From Deltaproteobacteria bacterium HGW-Deltaproteobacteria-12 (lineage in GTDB: Bacteria; Desulfobacterota; Syntrophia; Syntrophales; Smithellaceae), in the NCBI GenBank assembly GCA_002840565.1, contig PHBK01000008.1, positions 1-64,000 of the forward strand: DNA of 64,000 nt, read 5' to 3'. The notes beneath the pieces were generated by a model. It was not told the origin of the DNA. It saw nothing but the letters and a program-made list of their open reading frames with translations, and did no database searches. The translations under genes and the position numbers were made by a program. Below are positions 49,821-64,000 of the stretch, one piece after another; position 1 is the stretch's first letter; every line of letters begins with the position of its first letter.

Positions 49821-50505
49821 GTTATGTGACTAAACATGAAGGGAGACAATAAATGCAAAAACTTGTCTGGGATTCAGTCGGTAATCTCAATTCACAAGAG
49901 TATACGTGTGGTTATTGTGGTTCTTCAATAGCATCAGAAAAAGGGTGGTATGGGCACAGGCAAGGCTACAATAATATTTTTGCCACCATTTACATATGTC
50001 ATAAATGCGGGCGGCCAACATTAATAGACGAGACCGAAAATGGTAAGCAAACCCCTGGTGTAGTATTCGGTAATACTGTTTCAGATATCCCTGAAAAAAC
50101 TGTCGGAGACTTGTATTCTGAAGCACGGAAATGCACTGGTGCAGGATCATATACGGCATCAGTTTTATGCTGTAGAAAATTATTAATGCATGTGGCGGTA
50201 TCCAAAGGTGCAAAGGTCGGAGAATCATTTGTCAGTTACGTTGAATACCTAGCCAACAAAAATTACATTCCTCCTGATGCTAAAGACTGGGTAGATCACA
50301 TAAGGAAGAAAAGTAATGAAGCAAACCATGAAATTTCTATTATGGGTAAGGACGATGCAGAGGAGCTTATATCCTTTATCGAAATGCTTCTAAAAGTAAT
50401 TTACGAATTCCCAGCTGCTATTAAGAAAAAATTAACACCACCAAGTAACCCCACATAACAAGACACTCCAGCCGACGCCAAAAAATGGCGCGGCTGAGTT
50501 TAGAC
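49821..50505 (+). mobile_element. Integron-type gene cassette 1 (DUF4145 gene plus attC)
   Basis: The left core GTTATGT (49821-49827) fits GTTRRRY except for one position. It is the exact reverse complement of ACATAAC (50453-50459), the R'' box of the attC-like site that ends this unit. This is the relation expected for one circular cassette opened at G/TT. The unit holds one gene with its own ribosome-binding site and little spacer, as cassettes do. No attI or intI is recognisable upstream. Confidence 0.7.
49853..50458 (+). CDS. Zinc-ribbon DUF4145 protein
   Basis: 201 residues. An N-terminal zinc ribbon with C19-x2-C22 and C49-x2-C52 is followed by a helical DUF4145 domain (about 80-190): DLYSEARKCTGAGSYTASVLCCRKLLMHVA and HIRKKSNEANHEISIMGKDDAEELISFIEMLLKVIYEF. 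DUF4145 occurs alone or fused to restriction and other defence enzymes; its activity is not defined. GGGAG precedes the ATG. The stop codon lies within the R'' box of the attC. Its partner is probably the OLD-type gene in the next cassette (inference). Confidence 0.75.
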   Translation: MQKLVWDSVGNLNSQEYTCGYCGSSIASEKGWYGHRQGYNNIFATIYICHKCGRPTLIDETENGKQTPGVVFGNTVSDIPEKTVGDLYSEARKCTGAGSYTASVLCCRKLLMHVAVSKGAKVGESFVSYVEYLANKNYIPPDAKDWVDHIRKKSNEANHEISIMGKDDAEELISFIEMLLKVIYEFPAAIKKKLTPPSNPT

Positions 50506-50512
50506 GTTATAT
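50453..50512 (+). repeat. attC-like recombination site 1
   Basis: A 60-base site with the full attC architecture. R'' is ACATAAC (50453-50459) and R' is GTTATAT (50506-50512). Between them, CAGCCG (50469-50474) pairs with CGGCTG (50491-50496), A50475 is extrahelical, and CGCCA (50476-50480) pairs with TGGCG (50486-50490) across an AAAAA loop. Size, bulge and GC-rich L''/L' arms closely resemble the short attC sites of resistance cassettes such as aadA. The recombination point would be between G50506 and T50507. Confidence 0.75.
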
Positions 50513-50524
50513 TAAAGGACTAAT

Positions 50525-52048
50525 ATGATTGAATATCTTTCTGCTAAGAATCATAAGGCTCTCAAGCATGCTCAACTTAATGAACTTGGAAGAATAAATA
50601 TTATATGTGGAAAAAACAACAGTGGAAAAACATCATTGTTAGAAGCTTTATGTGAAAAAAACAAATTTGGTATTGGAAAAACAATAAAATCTAATGAAGA
50701 ATGGTTATTAGACTTATTCAAAAGTCAAACTGGAAGATATTCAAATCCTGTCCCAAGAATTTCAAATGACTGGTTTAATCAATATATACAAAACGTGTCC
50801 CATAATAATGTGATTTGGTTTTCTGACCAAAGCGAGGCTATAATCGCCGATATAAAGAAATCAAAAAAAGAACACAATGTTCTACGTCAGCACGCGGAAA
50901 CCGTGTTTGATTTTAAACCGTTATTAGACAGTTTTTTTAGTAAATCACTAAATTATTATAATCCTGTCCTGATACCTCCTAAAAGGCGTCTTAAATTCAA
51001 ATCCGATATAAATATGAATCAAGAAATCACACCTAGTGGTGACGGAATAATAAACAAATTGTTCTTCCTGAAAAATCAGGATCTTGAATCAACTAGCTAC
51101 AACGTATATAAAAAAATTTATGATACATTCCAGACTATAACAAATTCTAAATTTAATGTGGTTCCAAACAAAGAAAACAATATAGAATTATTTTATCAAA
51201 CTGATCGAGACTGGATACCTGCTGATGCTTGTGGTGTTGGACTTACAGATATATTGATTATTCTAACAGTGCTAAATGTATTTGATAATAATATTTTTTT
51301 TATTGAAGAACCTGAAAATCATTTGCACGCAGATTTTCAAAAAAGACTACTGTCCTATTTAACATCAATTAAAAACAAACAATTCCTTTTAACTACTCAT
51401 TCCGCAACTTTTATCAACACCGATATAATAGATAAGATATTTTATTGTAATAATAATGGAGAAATCAAAGTATCTGACCAAACATCAAAATCAGAAATAA
51501 TAACTTCGCTAGGGTATTCGGTTAGTGAAAATTTAGTTGCAGATCTAATTATTTTGTTAGAGGGCCCGTCAGATATACCCGTGATAAAAGAAATGCTTAA
51601 ATGGGTTGGTGTCCTTCCACACCATAATATTAAATACTGGTCACTCGGTGGCGATATAATGGCTTCTTTAGATCTATCAGTATTTGCAGAGAGAAATAAT
51701 GTGGTTTCTCTCGTAGATTCAGACCCTGGCAGTTCTGCTCAAAGGACTCGCTTTAAAAAGAATTGCGATACTAATCAAATCTTTTGCACAAAATTAAAAC
51801 GATACTCAATTGAAAACTACTTTACAATCAATGCGCTACGTGAAACGTTTCCTGATCAAATACCGTTGAGAGTTAAAGAGATTAACCACATGGAATCTGT
51901 CGACTCACAGATTGGCTTTAAGGCAAAAAACAAGACCATCAAATCCAAAAACTCACAGATAATTAAAAAAATGTCCATTTCTGATATTGCGGAAACTGAC
52001 TTAATGCCATTCTTGAATCACATAAAGAAATTTTTAAAGGTAATTTGA
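50525..52048 (+). CDS. OLD-family ATPase-TOPRIM protein (predicted nuclease)
   Basis: 507 residues. An ABC/SMC-like ATPase comes first: Walker A GKNNSGKTSLLEAL (29-42), GVGLTDILIILTVLNV as signature region, Walker B NIFFIEEPENHLHADF (about 257-272) and the H-loop LLTTHSATFIN. A C-terminal TOPRIM domain follows: LIILLEGPSDIPVIKEML (about 340-357) with the metal-binding Glu, LVDSDPGS (about 397-404) with the DxD, and KRYSIENYF. OLD proteins are ATP-regulated DNases; relatives act in Gabija, retron and PARIS-like defence. A strongly AT-rich gene, unlike the chromosome around it. Confidence 0.85.
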   Translation: MIEYLSAKNHKALKHAQLNELGRINIICGKNNSGKTSLLEALCEKNKFGIGKTIKSNEEWLLDLFKSQTGRYSNPVPRISNDWFNQYIQNVSHNNVIWFSDQSEAIIADIKKSKKEHNVLRQHAETVFDFKPLLDSFFSKSLNYYNPVLIPPKRRLKFKSDINMNQEITPSGDGIINKLFFLKNQDLESTSYNVYKKIYDTFQTITNSKFNVVPNKENNIELFYQTDRDWIPADACGVGLTDILIILTVLNVFDNNIFFIEEPENHLHADFQKRLLSYLTSIKNKQFLLTTHSATFINTDIIDKIFYCNNNGEIKVSDQTSKSEIITSLGYSVSENLVADLIILLEGPSDIPVIKEMLKWVGVLPHHNIKYWSLGGDIMASLDLSVFAERNNVVSLVDSDPGSSAQRTRFKKNCDTNQIFCTKLKRYSIENYFTINALRETFPDQIPLRVKEINHMESVDSQIGFKAKNKTIKSKNSQIIKKMSISDIAETDLMPFLNHIKKFLKVI

Positions 52049-54076: not shown

Positions 54077-55438
54077 ATGAAAGCAGATTCCTTGAAATTA
54101 CATGGAGAGGATCTTTTTGCAGCGGTAATGAATACTGTCAGCGATGCAATTACCGTGATCGACAAGGATTTAAATGTCATATTCCAAAACGAGGCTGTAC
54201 AGCAGATATACGGCTCCACCAGCGGGAAATGTTATGAGGCTTATCGCGGTCGTCGGGAGCCTTGCGAAAATTGTATTATCCTTGATGTCATCGCGGATGG
54301 AAAGCCGAAGAGAGCACTTCGGGACATTCAACTGCCGAACGGCAATATTCTCTGGATGGAAGTATTTTCAGGGCCGTTCAAGGATGAAAACGGGCTGATT
54401 ATCGGAGCCGTGGAGGTTGTGCGCAATGTTACAGAACAAATCCGGCTTTCCGAAGAGTGCGTCACACTCCGGCGGGAGATGGAACGCCAAGCCCAATTTA
54501 ACAATATAATTACGCAGTCCAAAAGAATGAAAGCTATTTTTCGTCTTATCGAAAGAATAGCTTCCACCATGAGTTCGGTACTGATTACCGGGGAATCCGG
54601 CACCGGAAAGGAGCTCATTGCCCGGGCCATCGTTTTTAATTCCGACAGGAAAGAGAAGCCGTTCGTGACGGTTAATTGCGGAGCCATCCCGGAAAACTTG
54701 CTGGAGTCGGAACTTTTTGGTCATGTGCGGGGGTCATTTACGGGAGCCATAAAAGATCATCGGGGCCTGATAGAAACAGCCGATGGAGGCACCCTTTTCC
54801 TGGACGAAGTCGGAGAAATACCTTTACCGATTCAGGTCAAGATTTTGCGCTTTCTCCAGGAAGGGGAAACGCGTCGGATTGGAGACACCAGGGTTCGGAA
54901 ATATGATGTCCGGATAATCGCGGCAACCAACCGCAACCTGGACGAAGCAATCCGTGACGGCGTATTCCGGGAAGACCTTTTCTTCCGTCTGAACGTGATC
55001 CCTATATTCCTGCCTCCGCTGCGCGAAAGAAAGGAGGATATACCTCCGCTGGCTACTCACATTCTTCAGCGTCTCTGTGACGATCATTCCCGCAACGTGA
55101 CGGGGATCTCAGCGCATACACTTAAAATATTTATGACCTACCCATGGCCCGGGAACGTAAGAGAAATGGAAAATGTGATTGAATACGCATTACACCTTAC
55201 CGACGAAGGGAACCCCATACGGCCCGAGCAACTTCCGCCAAAGCTGCTGGCTAAAACAGATGCCGCCTGGAGTCCCGGTGATTTTGTTTCCATTGAAGAA
55301 TATACAAAACAGTCCATTCTGGTTCTGCAGAAAGATCATTCCGAAGAACAAGTAGCTGACGTCCTGGGAATCAGCCGCAAGAGCCTGTGGGAGAAACGAA
55401 AGCGCTGGAACATCCCGCGTCCGGAAAAAGCCGGTTGA
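54077..55438 (+). CDS. PAS-domain sigma-54-dependent transcriptional activator
   Basis: A 453-residue enhancer-binding protein. N-terminal PAS domain (about 10-125) with an unusual C-x10-C-x2-C set (GKCYEAYRGRREPCENC, about 51-67) that could bind metal or sense redox. AAA+ domain: Walker A GESGTGKELIARA (about 172-184), sigma-54 contact loop GSFTGA (219-224) in place of GAFTGA, and Walker B GGTLFLDEVGEI. C-terminal Fis-type helix-turn-helix EEQVADVLGISRKSLWEKRKRW. It probably activates the promoter at 55623, 185 bp past its stop. Confidence 0.92.
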   Translation: MKADSLKLHGEDLFAAVMNTVSDAITVIDKDLNVIFQNEAVQQIYGSTSGKCYEAYRGRREPCENCIILDVIADGKPKRALRDIQLPNGNILWMEVFSGPFKDENGLIIGAVEVVRNVTEQIRLSEECVTLRREMERQAQFNNIITQSKRMKAIFRLIERIASTMSSVLITGESGTGKELIARAIVFNSDRKEKPFVTVNCGAIPENLLESELFGHVRGSFTGAIKDHRGLIETADGGTLFLDEVGEIPLPIQVKILRFLQEGETRRIGDTRVRKYDVRIIAATNRNLDEAIRDGVFREDLFFRLNVIPIFLPPLRERKEDIPPLATHILQRLCDDHSRNVTGISAHTLKIFMTYPWPGNVREMENVIEYALHLTDEGNPIRPEQLPPKLLAKTDAAWSPGDFVSIEEYTKQSILVLQKDHSEEQVADVLGISRKSLWEKRKRWNIPRPEKAG

Positions 55439-55466
55439 GCTGATCTCGAAAAAAACGCCTCATCTG

Positions 55467-55511
55467 TTACCGATGGTAATGTCTGTCGGTCAGTTTTATT
55501 ACCATAAGTAA
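55467..55511 (+). promoter_or_regulatory. Two palindromic putative upstream activator sites
   Basis: TTACCGATGGTAA (55467-55479) and TTACCATAAGTAA (55499-55511) are 13-base dyads with TTAC...GTAA arms and centres 32 bp apart, about three helical turns. They lie 112-170 bp upstream of the sigma-54 promoter, the usual enhancer distance, and right after the activator gene. Inference: binding sites of that activator. Confidence 0.65.
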
Positions 55512-55622
55512 CATATCCATGTTTCCCTTTTTTCTCTTCATAGTAGTTGTCATTATTTATTATTTCATGTTTTCAGCCATTTAGAATGTGGTTTTCCGCA
55601 TTATTACATCTTTCCTTCTGCC

Positions 55623-55638
55623 TGGCACACTTACTGCT
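55623..55638 (+). promoter_or_regulatory. Sigma-54 (-24/-12) promoter
   Basis: TGGCACACTTACTGCT: GG at 55624-55625 and GC at 55636-55637 are separated by the required 10 bases, and TGGCAC matches the -24 consensus fully. The start would be near 55649, 30 bases before the first gene of the small-protein operon. Confidence 0.75.
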
Positions 55639-55678
55639 CTTATAGAGTTGCAAAGATCATATAAAAAGGAGGTTAAAA

Positions 55679-55942
55679 ATGACCAGTATAAAAGAGAATC
55701 AAAAAGAATTTAGTACCTGCTGTGAGAACACACACTTTGCAGAGATGATGCAAAAAAAGATGGGCCAAAAAGGAATTGGTTCGCTCTGCGCAGAGATGAT
55801 GAAGAAGGTTACTGAAAAGCAGGGAGAGGGTTGCAGCATCCGATGTGCTGAAATGATGCAATCAATGATGAAAGGGTGCGGCGGTATTAAACAGAAAACC
55901 AAAGAAACGAAAAAGGAGGCAGGCAGTGTTGAAGGTAAATAG
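55679..55942 (+). CDS. Cys/Met-rich small protein with repeated C-A-E-M-M motif
   Basis: 87 residues, soluble, not recognised. Three imperfect repeats, HFAEMMQKKM, LCAEMMKKVT and RCAEMMQSMM, are spaced 17-22 residues apart. Seven cysteines include the pair at 14-15 and GEGCSIRCAEMMQ. The C-terminus is Lys/Glu-rich. A metal-binding or metal-buffering role is plausible from the Cys/Met pattern but not shown. A strong GGAGG precedes the ATG. It is the first gene behind the sigma-54 promoter and overlaps the next gene by 17 bp. Confidence 0.7.
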   Translation: MTSIKENQKEFSTCCENTHFAEMMQKKMGQKGIGSLCAEMMKKVTEKQGEGCSIRCAEMMQSMMKGCGGIKQKTKETKKEAGSVEGK

Positions 55943-56180
55943 TAATCAGGAACTAAAAAAAGTTCAGAGAAAAAAACTATACCGGAAGTTAGATGCGATC
56001 GGCTGGGGTTTGTTTTTCATTTGGATAGGCATAGCTTTGCTGGCCGATGTGGGCTGGGGAATTGGTCTGATGGGTATCGGTCTGCTTATTCTCTGCTCAG
56101 TGGCTGCAAAAAAATACTTGATTGACGGGGGCCGGCGGGAGAACTTCAAAGACGATTTGCTGACAGGAGGTGTTAAATGA
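55926..56180 (+). CDS. Small membrane protein (two helices, LiaF/DUF5668-like)
   Basis: 84 residues. Basic N-terminus, then two hydrophobic segments around GWGLFFIWIGIALLADVGWGIGLMGIGLLILCSVAA, and a charged cytosolic tail. The W-G-xx-hydrophobic-G pattern resembles N-terminal membrane domains of LiaF-type stress proteins. It starts at GTG 55926, six bases after GGAGG. The third small gene begins within its stop codon (ATGA). Confidence 0.65.
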   Translation: MLKVNSNQELKKVQRKKLYRKLDAIGWGLFFIWIGIALLADVGWGIGLMGIGLLILCSVAAKKYLIDGGRRENFKDDLLTGGVK

Positions 56181-56347
56181 TTGAATCGATCATGAAGCTG
56201 CATACATGCGCCGACTGCTCCATCCGGTGCAGAGCGCAAGCGAAGCCGGGCTCGCTCCTGGCTAGACTCCATCGATGGCACGCCAGGTGGTGGCCCGGGT
56301 GGAAGATTTACCAGGCGCAGCTGCGCGCCGCGGCAACAAAGCAATGA
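56177..56347 (+). CDS. 56-residue Cys/Trp/Arg-rich small protein
   Basis: A short open frame beginning in the ATGA overlap at 56177, with AGGAGG (56165-56170) at ideal distance, ending TGA at 56345-56347. The N-terminal motif HTCADCSIRCRAQAK repeats the CSIRC of the first gene of this operon. The rest is rich in Arg, Trp and Ala (RLHRWHARWWPGWKIYQ). It has no clear membrane helix. Function unknown; the shared CSIRC suggests a common ligand or partner. Confidence 0.65.
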   Translation: MIESIMKLHTCADCSIRCRAQAKPGSLLARLHRWHARWWPGWKIYQAQLRAAATKQ

Positions 56348-56366
56348 CAAGCATTTGATACATGAC

Positions 56367-56406
56367 GGGATGGTTCCCGCAGATATCCGTGGTGCGGAAC
56401 CATCCT
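56367..56406 (+). repeat. Inverted repeat in the small-protein operon
   Basis: GGGATGGTTCC (56367-56377) pairs with GGAACCATCCT (56396-56406), 11 bp with one G-T pair and an 18-base loop. No T run follows, so it is more likely an mRNA-stabilising or processing hairpin than a terminator. It lies between the 56-residue gene and the next membrane gene. Confidence 0.55.
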
Positions 56407-56445
56407 GTCGGGTGCGGCAAATCATAACAAGGAAGGAATAGAAAT

Positions 56446-56682
56446 ATGACGGAAAGAAATAATGAAAATAAATCAATCAGTGAAAAGCCTCACTGGCATT
56501 CCATGTGCTGGGGAAATAATACCTTTTGGGGCATACTCTTTATTGTGGTTGGCCTTTTCCGGTTCGGGAAAAAAGCAAATTTGTTTCCAACTGAACTAAT
56601 TACGATATACTGGCCTCTTGTCCTAGTTATAATAGGAATTTGGATGATCGGAAAAGAGACGATAAGAAGAAGGAAGTCATAA
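56446..56682 (+). CDS. Small two-helix membrane protein (LiaF-like)
   Basis: 78 residues. Polar N-terminus with HWHSMCWGNNTFWG, then two hydrophobic segments, GILFIVVGLFRFG and LITIYWPLVLVIIGIWMIG, and a basic tail. It resembles the 84-residue protein two genes upstream in size and layout, so the two may be paralogues. AAGGAAGG precedes the ATG. Confidence 0.65.
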   Translation: MTERNNENKSISEKPHWHSMCWGNNTFWGILFIVVGLFRFGKKANLFPTELITIYWPLVLVIIGIWMIGKETIRRRKS

Positions 56683-56714: not shown

Positions 56715-57242
56715 ATGAATAGAATTCTAATTTATTTTGTTTTGGTCCAAGTTTTCCTGCTGGGATTCCTGCTTCGTTTTATTTATGAAAGGCTCAAGCT
56801 GGCGCGCAGGATCGACACAAGGAATACGCTGATTTTTTCACTGATCTTCACCGCCATGATGCTCATCTGGGCAAGCTGGTTTGTAATGAGTCCTCTTGAT
56901 CCCTGGAGGTTTGACCTGCCGGGCGTTATTCGATGGTCAGGGATGGCCGCTTTCATCTTGGGACTGATCCTGGTATTCGGGGCCTTGCTCAAGCTGAAGA
57001 GTGTAGAAAATATCGAGTTTCTGGCTACCACAGGAATATTTTCCAGAATCCGCCACCCTATGTATTTGGGTTTTATACTCTGGATCCTGGGCTGGGCCGT
57101 ATATAACGGAGCGATCTTCAGCCTGATTCCCGGAAGTGTTGGAATAGCCAATATCCTTTACTGGCGAAGCCTGGAGGAAGCAGAGATGAAAGCGCTCTAT
57201 GGGGAAACATATACCGCATACAGCAATAGAACCTGGTTTTGA
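56715..57242 (+). CDS. Isoprenylcysteine carboxyl methyltransferase-family membrane protein
   Basis: 175 residues with about five membrane segments. TTGIFSRIRHPMYLGFILWILGWAVYNGAI (about 110-139) and LEEAEMKALYGETYTAYSNRTWF at the end are the SAM-binding RHPxY and E-E hallmarks of the ICMT/PEMT fold. Bacterial members methylate lipids or other small substrates; the one here is unknown. It is the last gene of the putative sigma-54 operon, 32 bp after the preceding one. Confidence 0.8.
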   Translation: MNRILIYFVLVQVFLLGFLLRFIYERLKLARRIDTRNTLIFSLIFTAMMLIWASWFVMSPLDPWRFDLPGVIRWSGMAAFILGLILVFGALLKLKSVENIEFLATTGIFSRIRHPMYLGFILWILGWAVYNGAIFSLIPGSVGIANILYWRSLEEAEMKALYGETYTAYSNRTWF

Positions 57243-58533: not shown

Positions 58534-59121
58534 CTAGGTGTGATATTTCCTGACTACCGCTGTAACCACGCCGCCCAGGCGCATTTCGGCTACAGGCGTG
58601 ATCCGGGGGTATTTCGGGTTGGCTGCTTCCAGGTAAACATCCTTGCCCCTCTTATGAAAATACTTCATTGTCCAGGCGCCGTCCACCTCGGCAATGACAA
58701 TATCCCCTGTTTTCGGCTCTCTGCCGCGCTCGACAAGCACCAGATCATCCGGCATGATCCCGGCGCCGATCATGGAATCTCCATCAACCTTCAGCAGAAA
58801 GGACTCCGCCTGTTTGGTGATGAGGTAGTCGTCAAAGGATATCAGATCGCGTAATTCTTCTTCGGCAGGTGAGGGAAAGCCGGCCGATACTCCCCCGGCA
58901 AGAGGGATACCGGTAAGAGAATTGATAAACGTCAGATGCCCGGAGCTGTCCTTTTCCAGAATCCCTTCCTGTAAGAGCTTGTTCATCCAGAAATGGACGA
59001 CGCTCTTGGAGCGGACAGCAAGCAAAGTAAGCATCTCTTCATAGGTGGGCATACGATGGCGTTCGCGATTGAAGTCTGCTATCCTCTGCGCTACTGATTT
59101 TACGGTGCGTTTCATTTCCAT
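58534..59121 (-). CDS. lexA: LexA repressor
   Basis: A 195-residue SOS repressor. Winged-helix DNA-binding domain (about 5-65). Autocleavage point at Ala75-Gly76 in IPLAGGVSAGFPSPAEEE. Peptidase S24 dyad Ser116 (VDGDSMIGAGI) and Lys153 (WTMKYFHKRG). The GFPSPAEE stretch is UmuD-like, so a UmuD/LexA hybrid origin is conceivable, but the DNA-binding domain makes it a repressor. ATG 59121 is chosen because the predicted transcription start is at about 59122; ATG 59115 and GTG 59130 are alternatives. Divergent from yedK. Confidence 0.88.
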   Translation of the reverse strand: MEMKRTVKSVAQRIADFNRERHRMPTYEEMLTLLAVRSKSVVHFWMNKLLQEGILEKDSSGHLTFINSLTGIPLAGGVSAGFPSPAEEELRDLISFDDYLITKQAESFLLKVDGDSMIGAGIMPDDLVLVERGREPKTGDIVIAEVDGAWTMKYFHKRGKDVYLEAANPKYPRITPVAEMRLGGVVTAVVRKYHT

Positions 59122-59128
59122 GGCAGCC

Positions 59129-59158
59129 ACTATAATAGAACATACGTTCTATTGTCAA
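59129..59158 (-). promoter_or_regulatory. lexA promoter with SOS operator
   Basis: On the minus strand, TTGACA (59158-59153) and TATAGT (59134-59129) are separated by 18 bp. The spacer is filled by the dyad AATAGAAC-ATAC-GTTCTATT (plus strand, 59134-59153), whose GAAC-N4-GTTC core (59138-59149) is the Gram-positive-type LexA box. LexA would thus repress itself and possibly yedK. Confidence 0.82.
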
Positions 59159-61184: not shown

Positions 61185-64000
61185 ATGACTTTGAACAACA
61201 AAAGAATTGAATATAAGAGCGGCTCGGTAAATTCATTTTTGCCTGATATATCATTCCTGGATATTTACATTTGCGTGCTGCTGATCTGTTTTTTGTTTGG
61301 ATCCGCGTCTGCTCCCGCTAATGCCTTTGCCGGGGAAAAGGGGTGGGTTGGTGCGCAGGTGCAGCCCTTGGCCGGTGCAATGAGACGCTTTCTTTCCCGG
61401 TTGACGGGTACAGAGGAAGGTATTCTGGTTGCCGCAGTTACCAAGGGGGGACCCGCCGAACAAATGGGAATAAAACCCAATGACGTCGTTCTGGGTTTTA
61501 ATTACCGGAAAATTAAAAATATCGATGAATTCGAACGTGCCGTCGCGGGAGCAAGCCCCGGTGATAGAATAGTCTTATCCGTGTTTCGCATGTCTCCAAC
61601 CATCCTGACTATTGTCGGACGGATGGGGCAATCGCCGGAAGCCGGCGGAGTAGATCAATCAGCGGGAGGTATCCAGGAAAGTCCAGGCCCTGCGACAGGG
61701 GATGTAACTGCTAAAATATTTGCCCCGCCGGGACATCATGAAATTGAATCTCTGGATTATTCCCGCGACGGTGAGTTGATTGTTTCCGGGGGGGGGACAT
61801 CGCTTAAGCTGTGGGATGCGTTAACAGGCAGGGAAATCAGAACATTTACCGGCGTTGCAGATGTTATTTATTCAGTTGCGTTTTCACCGGACGTCAGATT
61901 TGTGCTCACGGGCTGCGCCAACCATAAAGCCGTCCTCTGGGATGTTGAAACAGGAAAACCAATTCGGTCATTTATCGGACAGACTAAGGATGACCTGATC
62001 GAGTCAGTAGCTTTCTCTCCCGACGGCCGCTCCGTGCTTACCGGGGGAAGTGATAAAACCATCCGGCTGTGGGATACGGCCTCCGGACAGGAAATACGTA
62101 CGTTTGCCGGACATAAAGCGTGGGTCAACTCCGTCGGTTTTTCGCCGGACGGCAAGTTGATTGTTTCCGGAGGCTGGGACGGCCACATCAAGCTTTGGGA
62201 TGTTGCTACCGCCGCTGAAACCGGACCTTTTAAAGAAAATAAACCGGCTGCTGAATATAAAGCCGCCAGAGATAATTTGCGCTCCGCCGGCGGGAGAGGA
62301 AGAGGAGGTGCCGCTCCTGTTGTTGCTGAGCCTGCCAAGATTGATGTTCCTCCTGCCGTCATTGTAAGAGTGGGTGATAAAATGGCCTGGAATATCGAGG
62401 CCTGGAAGAATCGCCTCAGCACGGTTGTCTTTTCTCCTGACGGCAAATATCTGCTTTCCGGAAACTGGGGCGGAGTCATCAGTTTGTGGGATGCTTCCAG
62501 CGGGCAAAAAATAAAAAATTTTACCGGACACACGGGGAGAATTAACGCCCTGAGATTTTCACCCGACGGCCGACGCATACTATCGGCAGGCCGCGACAAT
62601 CTGGTGAAAATATGGGATGTCGCCACCGGGCAAGCGCTGCAGACAATGACCGGACATACAGGGGAAGTAAGGGCCATCGCTTTTTCCGGCAAGCCGCATA
62701 TTGTCATATCCGGCGGCGCGGATGGCACAATGAGGTTCTGGAACTCCAATACCGGCGAAGAGTTTATTAAGTTTGTCGGTTTGAATGATGGTGAGTGGAT
62801 AATTGTCACCTTTGATGGCTATTACAATTCGTCGCCAAAGGGTCACAAAGAGCTGAACATACTTGTCAATACCAAAGTGTATGGGATTGACCAGTTTTAT
62901 GATCTTTTTTACCGTCCCGATATTGTGACGGCAAAACTGCGTGGCGAGAATATTGCAGACCTGGTTACTCTGACTCTCAGTGAAGCGATCAAGACCCCGC
63001 CACCCCGTGTCAGTTTTACCTCAATGCCCGGGGAAACAAGAACGCCGGCGGCTAAAGTATGCTATCGTGTAAAAAGCGCCGGCGGCGGCATCGGCGAAAT
63101 AAGGATTTTCCAAAACGGCAAGCTTATCAAATCTGATGGTTTCTATCGCGAAGCCTTCAGAAATGAAAATACAGCTAAGATGCAACTGGCTTCATTGAAT
63201 AGCAGGGCCGTCTATCAGGATATGCGCTCCCTGACGGTGAAGGAAAAGGCCACGTCCCTTGCTCCACTTGCCGCGCCGAAAGGAAACCTGGTTGAGGAGT
63301 GCGTCGATGTGGAAGCTATTGCGGGTGAGAACGAAATCAGCCTGACCGCCTTTAATGCCCCCAATACCGTGCAGAGTTTTCTCGAAACTGCGAAGTTTGT
63401 GTCCACGGTAAAGCAGTCCGAGCCTCATCTTTACATTCTGTCCGTTGGCATTGACAGATATCGTGACGCTTCCATCAATCTCAAATATGCGGCCAAAGAT
63501 GCGGCGGATTTTGCAGGCCGGATGTCGGCCGCGGCCCGCAGCCTCTATAAACCTGAAAACATCCATCTGGTCAGCCTGGTAAATGAGCAGGCCGGTAAAC
63601 AGAATATTCTCTCCACGATAGACAGCCTTTCCAAAAAAATAAAACACGCAGACCGGTTCATATTTTTTGACGCCTCCCATGGACTGCTGCTGCAGGGGCA
63701 GTACTACATAGTCACCAGCAGCTTTGACGGGAAACTGTTCAGTATGGCCAGTTTGATCAGCTCCAATGAAATTGTCGAAATCTCCAAGAAGATAAAATCT
63801 TTGTCGCAGTTGTTCATCTTTGATACCTGTCATGCCGGAGGTGTCGATAATATTGTCAGCGGCCTTTACGATGCCCGGATGTCAGTGCTGGCAAAGAAAA
63901 TGGGGCTGCACATTTTTGCGTCGGCCGGCAGCGTGCAGACAGCGCTGGATGGTTTTCAGGGCAACGGCTTGTATACACATACGCTGTTGCAGGGGATAGC
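61185..64000 (+). CDS. PDZ-WD40-caspase (peptidase C14) protein, 3' end outside window
   Basis: The frame is open from ATG 61185, eight bases after GGGAGG, to the window edge: 938 codons, no stop. An N-terminal hydrophobic stretch (about 25-50, CVLLICFLFGSASAPANAFAG) is a signal or anchor. A PDZ domain (about 55-135) follows: EEGILVAAVTKGGPAEQMGIKPNDVVLGF. Seven WD40 repeats (about 184-527), a full propeller, carry a linker of about 45 residues between repeats 4 and 5. The caspase domain starts near 748 (LYILSVGIDRYRD) with His832 (FFDASHG) and Cys882 (FDTCHAGG), so the catalytic dyad is complete. Confidence 0.85.
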   Translation, partial: MTLNNKRIEYKSGSVNSFLPDISFLDIYICVLLICFLFGSASAPANAFAGEKGWVGAQVQPLAGAMRRFLSRLTGTEEGILVAAVTKGGPAEQMGIKPNDVVLGFNYRKIKNIDEFERAVAGASPGDRIVLSVFRMSPTILTIVGRMGQSPEAGGVDQSAGGIQESPGPATGDVTAKIFAPPGHHEIESLDYSRDGELIVSGGGTSLKLWDALTGREIRTFTGVADVIYSVAFSPDVRFVLTGCANHKAVLWDVETGKPIRSFIGQTKDDLIESVAFSPDGRSVLTGGSDKTIRLWDTASGQEIRTFAGHKAWVNSVGFSPDGKLIVSGGWDGHIKLWDVATAAETGPFKENKPAAEYKAARDNLRSAGGRGRGGAAPVVAEPAKIDVPPAVIVRVGDKMAWNIEAWKNRLSTVVFSPDGKYLLSGNWGGVISLWDASSGQKIKNFTGHTGRINALRFSPDGRRILSAGRDNLVKIWDVATGQALQTMTGHTGEVRAIAFSGKPHIVISGGADGTMRFWNSNTGEEFIKFVGLNDGEWIIVTFDGYYNSSPKGHKELNILVNTKVYGIDQFYDLFYRPDIVTAKLRGENIADLVTLTLSEAIKTPPPRVSFTSMPGETRTPAAKVCYRVKSAGGGIGEIRIFQNGKLIKSDGFYREAFRNENTAKMQLASLNSRAVYQDMRSLTVKEKATSLAPLAAPKGNLVEECVDVEAIAGENEISLTAFNAPNTVQSFLETAKFVSTVKQSEPHLYILSVGIDRYRDASINLKYAAKDAADFAGRMSAAARSLYKPENIHLVSLVNEQAGKQNILSTIDSLSKKIKHADRFIFFDASHGLLLQGQYYIVTSSFDGKLFSMASLISSNEIVEISKKIKSLSQLFIFDTCHAGGVDNIVSGLYDARMSVLAKKMGLHIFASAGSVQTALDGFQGNGLYTHTLLQGI

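Follow-up and report, generated by a model that had tools for sequence, protein, structure and literature searches.

A predicted sigma-54 control module, conserved among activator orthologs, for an operon encoding an unnamed Cys/Met-rich protein

Do an activator gene, the intergenic region behind it and the operon that follows form one regulatory circuit and, if so, to which signal does the circuit respond? The question is raised by a locus near the end of the window, by which we mean the whole 64,000-nucleotide stretch of DNA that was analysed (Table 1). The preliminary description of this DNA had called the locus a complete sigma-54 control module and had suggested a metal or redox input. 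From sequence comparison we consider that the module, made up of activator, dyads, promoter and operon, is very probably real (probability about 0.88). The word “complete” is justified, since activator, sites, promoter and operon co-occur and the genome has no second copy of the paired site. The suggested input fared less evenly, as set out below.

Table 1. Features of the locus, with positions in the window.
Feature	Position	Strand	Remarks
One-component sigma-54 activator (bEBP)	54077..55438	+	PAS, Sigma54_activat AAA+, AAA lid and C-terminal Fis-type HTH
PAS cysteine cluster C52-x10-C63-x2-C66, KCYEAYRGRREPCENC	54230..54274	+	invariant in five aligned orthologs
Dyad 1, distal predicted enhancer, GTTACCGATGGTAAT	55466..55480	.	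15-bp; kept in orthologs
Dyad 2, proximal predicted enhancer, ATTACCATAAGTAAC	55498..55512	.	15-bp; centre 32 bp from dyad 1
Predicted sigma-54 promoter TGGCACACTTACTGCT, GG-N10-GC	55623..55638	+	kept in all seven intact loci
Ribosome-binding site AAGGAGG	55666..55672	+	6 nt ahead of ATG 55679; read from sequence
87-aa Cys/Met-rich soluble protein, first target gene	55679..55942	+	6 Cys, 10 Met
84-aa small membrane protein	55926..56180	+	GTG start; overlaps 87-aa gene
56-aa Cys-containing protein (CADCSIRC)	56177..56347	+	ORF; weak match to QmoC stretch, 6e-4
RNA hairpin without T-run	56364..56409	+	gap between third and fourth genes; 14-nt arms; fold z-score -3.6
78-aa LiaI/LiaF-like transmembrane protein	56446..56682	+	PF18917 1.5e-8, PF22570 5.6e-8
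ICMT/PEMT/NnrU-type membrane methyltransferase	56715..57242	+	PF04191 4.6e-8, PF07298 1.7e-8

In the activator, a PAS domain (residues 10–121, approximately) is followed by a Sigma54_activat AAA+ domain (residues 144–310) that bears a GSFTGA loop. In Pfam the AAA+ domain matches PF00158 (2.3e-70, 236 bits) and the PAS domain PAS_9 (2.5e-8), while the match to HTH_8 (7e-4) is weak, its 19.7 bits falling slightly under Pfam's 22; the predicted structure places C-terminal HTH helices at residues 406–417, 423–430 and 434–444. Walker A, Walker B and the GAFTGA-type loop can all be read in the translation (GESGTGKE, GTLFLDE and GSFTGA), and the best Foldseek match of the AlphaFold model is NtrC1 (1ny5), with other sigma-54 activators matching too. 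An RpoN gene is present in the host genome (PF04552, 221 bits at G000:C3). With its AAA+ domain, its Fis-type HTH and RpoN encoded in the same genome, the protein is a sigma-54 enhancer-binding protein (bEBP). In the enterobacterial zinc and envelope stress system ZraSR-ZraP, a sigma-54 activator likewise controls a small metal-related stress protein. ZraR, however, is the response regulator of a two-component system and has a receiver domain, whereas Pfam finds PAS and no receiver domain at the N-terminus of the activator described here, which is thus a one-component protein and not a ZraR-type regulator, and its targets are unrelated.

Two sequence traits of the activator had been taken as pointing to a metal or redox input, namely the GSFTGA variant and a cysteine cluster in the PAS domain. 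Both are present as claimed, and neither is unusual. GSFTGA was tallied in about 6 of 24 related activators, and three of the activator orthologs, those at L119 and L174 among them, have GAFTGA instead, so we reject it as a meaningful variant. The C-x10-C-x2-C motif type recurs in 11 of the 25 nearest non-orthologous PAS hits, all of the same phylum; being so widespread in the PAS sensors of the phylum, it is not supported as a specific metal signature. The loop that carries these cysteines has low confidence in the structure model. NreB-type Fe-S oxygen sensors have four cysteine ligands in their PAS domain, whereas only three conserved cysteines (C52, C63 and C66) are found here, and the activator does not fit that type. 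A PAS subtype with the pattern C[YFH]-x8-10-PC-x2-C was also seen to recur in many sensors of the phylum (loci L148–L172).

Beyond the end of the activator gene at 55438, two TTAC-N5-GTAA palindromes had been reported with centres 32 bp apart, and these were confirmed, with cores TTACCGATGGTAA at 55467–55479 (centre 55473) and TTACCATAAGTAA at 55499–55511 (centre 55505). Read on the opposite strand, dyad 2 is GTTACTTATGGTAAT. Two such palindromes occur in the 64 kb where 0.38 would be expected, a number reached in 3 of 100 shuffles, and when the intergenic region was shuffled 3000 times with its dinucleotides kept, no pair at 28–36 bp arose. The paired pattern has a single occurrence in the 4.0-Mb host genome (the reversed control gave 0), and no other target with a paired dyad was found there. 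The -24/-12 element with exact GG-N10-GC spacing at 55623 was also found as described, and so were the strong ribosome-binding site and the gene at 55679 behind it. One match to -24/-12, at one mismatch, was found in the 64 kb against 2.3 expected, which is not significant by itself; within the 240-bp intergenic region such a match is rare (P ~0.001). The case for the promoter rests on conservation: as a GG-N10-GC element with predicted bEBP sites about 100–200 bp upstream, retained among orthologs, it has the make-up of a sigma-54 promoter, and from its position a transcript start near 55649 is predicted.

The preliminary description would have counted a lack of conserved dyads upstream of orthologous operons against the module; the outcome speaks for it, as the dyads lie upstream of the operon in seven of eight activator orthologs. 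The set comprises the window and the genomes G002 (locus L031), G293 (L032), G037 (L119), G056, G229 (L118), G379 (L174) and G163 (L173), with identities to the window activator of 89% (G002), 80% (G293), 79% (G229) and 62% (G037). G002, G293, G037 and G056 were retrieved by protein search and G229 by the dyad pattern, while G379 and G163 came from a search with the PAS domain only, i.e. independently of the dyads; in that search a large E-value gap sets these two orthologs apart from the remaining hits (7e-62 vs 2e-27). In seven of the eight, from five families of one phylum, both dyads and the promoter are present at a near-fixed distance. For the first six loci the dyad spacings are 32, 32, 32, 33, 34 and 34 bp, and the -12 GC lies 131, 131, 128, 128, 130 and 130 bp from dyad 2. 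In the seventh, G379, the dyads are GCTACCGTAAGTAAC and GTTACTATTTGTAAC, again 32 bp from centre to centre, and the promoter TTGGCACGCCATATGCTC lies 128 bp away from dyad 2; the genes behind it encode a LiaF-like protein of the membrane and a 99-aa protein rich in Cys and Met. A [TC]GGCA-N7-TGCT element is found in all seven intact loci, 128–131 bp from dyad 2, and the main invariant blocks in an intergenic alignment of five loci are GTTACC...GTAA, TTAC.A...GTAAC and GGCA...TGCT. When both strands of ten distinct dyads are pooled, the consensus is GTTACC-N3-GGTAAC, with TTAC and GTAA nearly invariant.

In the eighth ortholog, that of G163, the activator is intact, and dyads, promoter and operon are jointly absent beside it. 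Behind this orphaned activator lie GmrSD_N and HEPN-like genes (L173 5532–7182, minus strand), which suggests that an insertion or rearrangement has replaced the operon. Pattern searches found the exact dyad pair in 4 of 155 genomes of the class and 3 of 395 of the phylum (six distinct among about 530), always beside activator orthologs and never in the reversed control. In seven of the eight genomes, a scan for dyads plus promoter picked out a single module; three extra matches in G229 and G379 do not have the consensus and look like chance. A point against the module is its sporadic occurrence, with only eight activator orthologs in about five lineages. No plasmid relatives were found, and searches of small classes around G274 and G229 gained nothing further.

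Of the operon's products, the 87-aa protein has no family entry in Pfam or NCBIfam, is 48–71% identical to its counterparts at three orthologous loci, and has no convincing relatives among solved structures; its own structure model (pLDDT 54) was too weak for use. The 84-aa protein shares 66% identity over 65 aa with the product of the second gene at L031, and the hairpin between the third and fourth genes is a possible processing or attenuation element. In the 78-aa protein, Pfam matches the LiaF transmembrane region only and not the C-terminal LiaF domain, so that it is LiaF-like rather than a LiaF protein. The methyltransferase matches the NCBIfam isoprenylcysteine methyltransferase at 5e-13, under the cut-off, and it bears only a remote resemblance to its counterpart at L031. 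In G037 and G056 the first target gene instead encodes a CMD/AhpD-like protein whose tail is rich in Cys. By Pfam and NCBIfam, the window operon contains none of ArsR, ACR3, ArsB, ArsC or ArsM and is thus not an ars operon.

Several other features of the window and of related loci were noted in passing. At 49853–52048, a DUF4145 gene (weak PADLOC PD-T7-4 match) adjoins a gene for an AAA_15/OLD-like ATPase with NsnB/AbiLi/GajA-like matches, which together look like a candidate anti-phage defence pair. An S24 peptidase, a LexA-like repressor, is encoded at 58534–59130 (minus strand), and a large WD40-repeat protein with a caspase-like region (PADLOC caspase, 2.6e-7) at 61185–63998, open at the window end. 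Locus L130 has CRISPR-like direct repeats at its contig end (4259–4661) that translate to repeated FNPCFYGTRSPT.

A contextual link between the target proteins and arsenic is suggested by distant homologs. Profile searches found such homologs of the 87-aa protein in G370, G274, G286 and G230, with scores of 27–38 bits; composition is no explanation, as none of about 2000 shuffles of each came near. The 99-aa protein of L174 scores 20 bits, which is likewise above every shuffle. A match in G412 (E 5e-4) has an internal stop and looks spurious. Three of the four loci with distant homologs are arsenic clusters, the fourth (G370) being on a short contig. In G274 and G286 the homolog is clustered with ArsR, ArsM and CMD as well as with a SigZ-like sigma factor, SHOCT and Fe-S proteins, and ArsP is present in the former and ACR3 in the latter; in G230 it lies near ACR3, CMD and an ArsC-type reductase (the last under the NCBIfam cut-off). 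Between the CMD target of G037 and the CMD of the G274 cluster, identity is 30% over 82 aa, and a SHOCT gene of the type found in arsenic clusters flanks the activator in G229 (L118). An arsenic-type cluster of ArsM/ACR3/ArsP, CMD, Fe-S proteins and a small Cys/Met-rich protein recurs at L131, L132 and L142, in two of the three with a SigZ-like sigma factor and SHOCT. These clusters share with the module the distant 87-aa homologs and relatives of the G037/G056 CMD target, but they have no paired dyads beside those genes, and no ars gene is part of the window operon. By guilt by association, the arsenic clusters would thus place the 87-aa family in a metal(loid) context.

We propose that the activator binds as dimers to two GTTACC-N3-GGTAAC operators which, at about three helical turns, would lie on the same face of the helix. 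A signal received through the PAS domain would lead to an activator hexamer, and this would loop the ~130 bp of DNA and remodel RpoN-RNA polymerase at the -24/-12 element, with transcription then starting at the predicted site. From the transcript the cell would make the soluble Cys/Met-rich protein together with small LiaF-like membrane proteins, and several lineages would add the membrane methyltransferase.

Other readings of the intergenic sequences are much less probable. One is that palindrome-like and GG-N10-GC strings were merely chosen by eye, and the count of -24/-12 matches, under the 64-kb expectation, could be cited for it. It can practically be dismissed, as no shuffle produced such a pair and, in every one of the seven intact orthologs, pair and promoter are both retained, and we reject a chance origin of the dyads. 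The dyads might also be operators of another DNA-binding protein, e.g. a repressor, with the sigma-54 activator acting elsewhere, given that the specificity of a Fis-type HTH is unreadable from sequence and that further regulators occur near some loci (ArsR-type at L032). We regard this as very unlikely: each genome with the paired site has a single one, always next to the activator, the dyads are gone where the operon is gone although the activator is still there (G163), and at 128–131 bp upstream of the -12 GC they are placed as an enhancer would be. Less likely still is that dyad 1 is part of the activator gene's terminator and not an enhancer. A terminator-like stem (55469–55490) does overlap dyad 1, and the hairpin sequence is similar in L031 and L032, so that terminator and distal enhancer may overlap there. 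However, by eye no hairpin followed by T's is seen in L118, L119 and L174, where the dyad pair and its spacing are nevertheless kept, and terminators do not consist of two equal dyads three turns apart; dyad 1 could double as a terminator.

With the sigma-54 module as the preferred reading, its input has to be judged mainly from context. We tentatively favour stress by a thiophilic metal(loid), e.g. arsenite or copper, or the resulting thiol damage, at a little under even odds. This is the best guess because homologs of the 87-aa protein lie in arsenic clusters and because two orthologs have CMD targets; it is a contextual one, since the Cys motif and GSFTGA are common and the loop is modelled with low confidence. 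Of the metal or redox input suggested earlier, then, the argument from the activator's own motifs falls; it is the surroundings of the target homologs, out of sight of the preliminary description, that speak for a metal(loid). Arsenite in particular is a doubtful choice. In copper clusters of the type merR-copA-cupredoxin-DUF2933-ICMT, the small protein DUF2933 adjoins an ICMT methyltransferase (PMC8478169), so that the context does not point to arsenic alone. Those clusters resemble the operon in placing a small protein beside an ICMT-type methyltransferase, theirs in a metal context, but they have another regulator, the window operon is without CopA, and the small protein here is LiaF-like. 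A close rival is a PAS domain that responds to oxygen, redox state, NO or some small metabolite by way of an Fe-S cluster, a heme or a ligand pocket, which may also hold for other PAS sensors with cysteines, and the chances of this reading too fall not far short of one half. It gains from the frequency of the PAS subtype among the nearest hits of the phylum, from flavodoxin/FMN-reductase genes neighbouring the window, L031 and L174 loci, and from a window operon without an arsenic gene, whereas Cys/Met-rich targets with homologs in arsenic clusters would not be predicted of a pure oxygen or NO sensor.

The general arrangement has precedents. In Desulfovibrio vulgaris, one-component bEBPs with co-localised sigma-54 target operons have been reconstructed, including DVU0569, where the sigma-54 promoter lies downstream of the bEBP gene (PMC4641369). 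The likeness extends to a PAS or GAF sensor joined to AAA+ and HTH domains, an adjoining dedicated operon and a conserved motif upstream of -24/-12, but the main text of that study contains neither a GTTAC/GTAAC string nor arsenic (PMC4641369). AioXSR controls arsenite oxidase in an RpoN-dependent, arsenite-connected response in which AioR, a response regulator driven by AioX/AioS, controls aioBA (PMC7533571); in contrast, the operon described here has no AioX/AioS/aioBA-type genes. One-component sigma-54 activators that govern an operon of their own are thus known already, and what differs from the D. vulgaris systems is that the targets belong to an unnamed family. No PAS sigma-54 sensor of arsenite or another metalloid was found in the literature searched. 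A bolder proposal, which we think rather improbable, is that the invariant trio C52, C63 and C66 in the PAS domain serves as a direct binding site for As(III) or some other thiophilic metal(loid), that the Cys/Met-rich family is a detoxification effector, and that one cassette has moved between distant lineages. If true, the activator would be a one-component sigma-54 metalloid sensor with an unrecognised Cys/Met-rich effector family.

With activator, enhancers and promoter in about 1.6 kb, the circuit is compact and suited to reporter work, and it offers an operator consensus, a loop of near-fixed length and, in each genome, a single predicted target. As it ties an unnamed Cys/Met-rich family, found also in arsenic clusters, to a dedicated regulator, the function of this family becomes testable.
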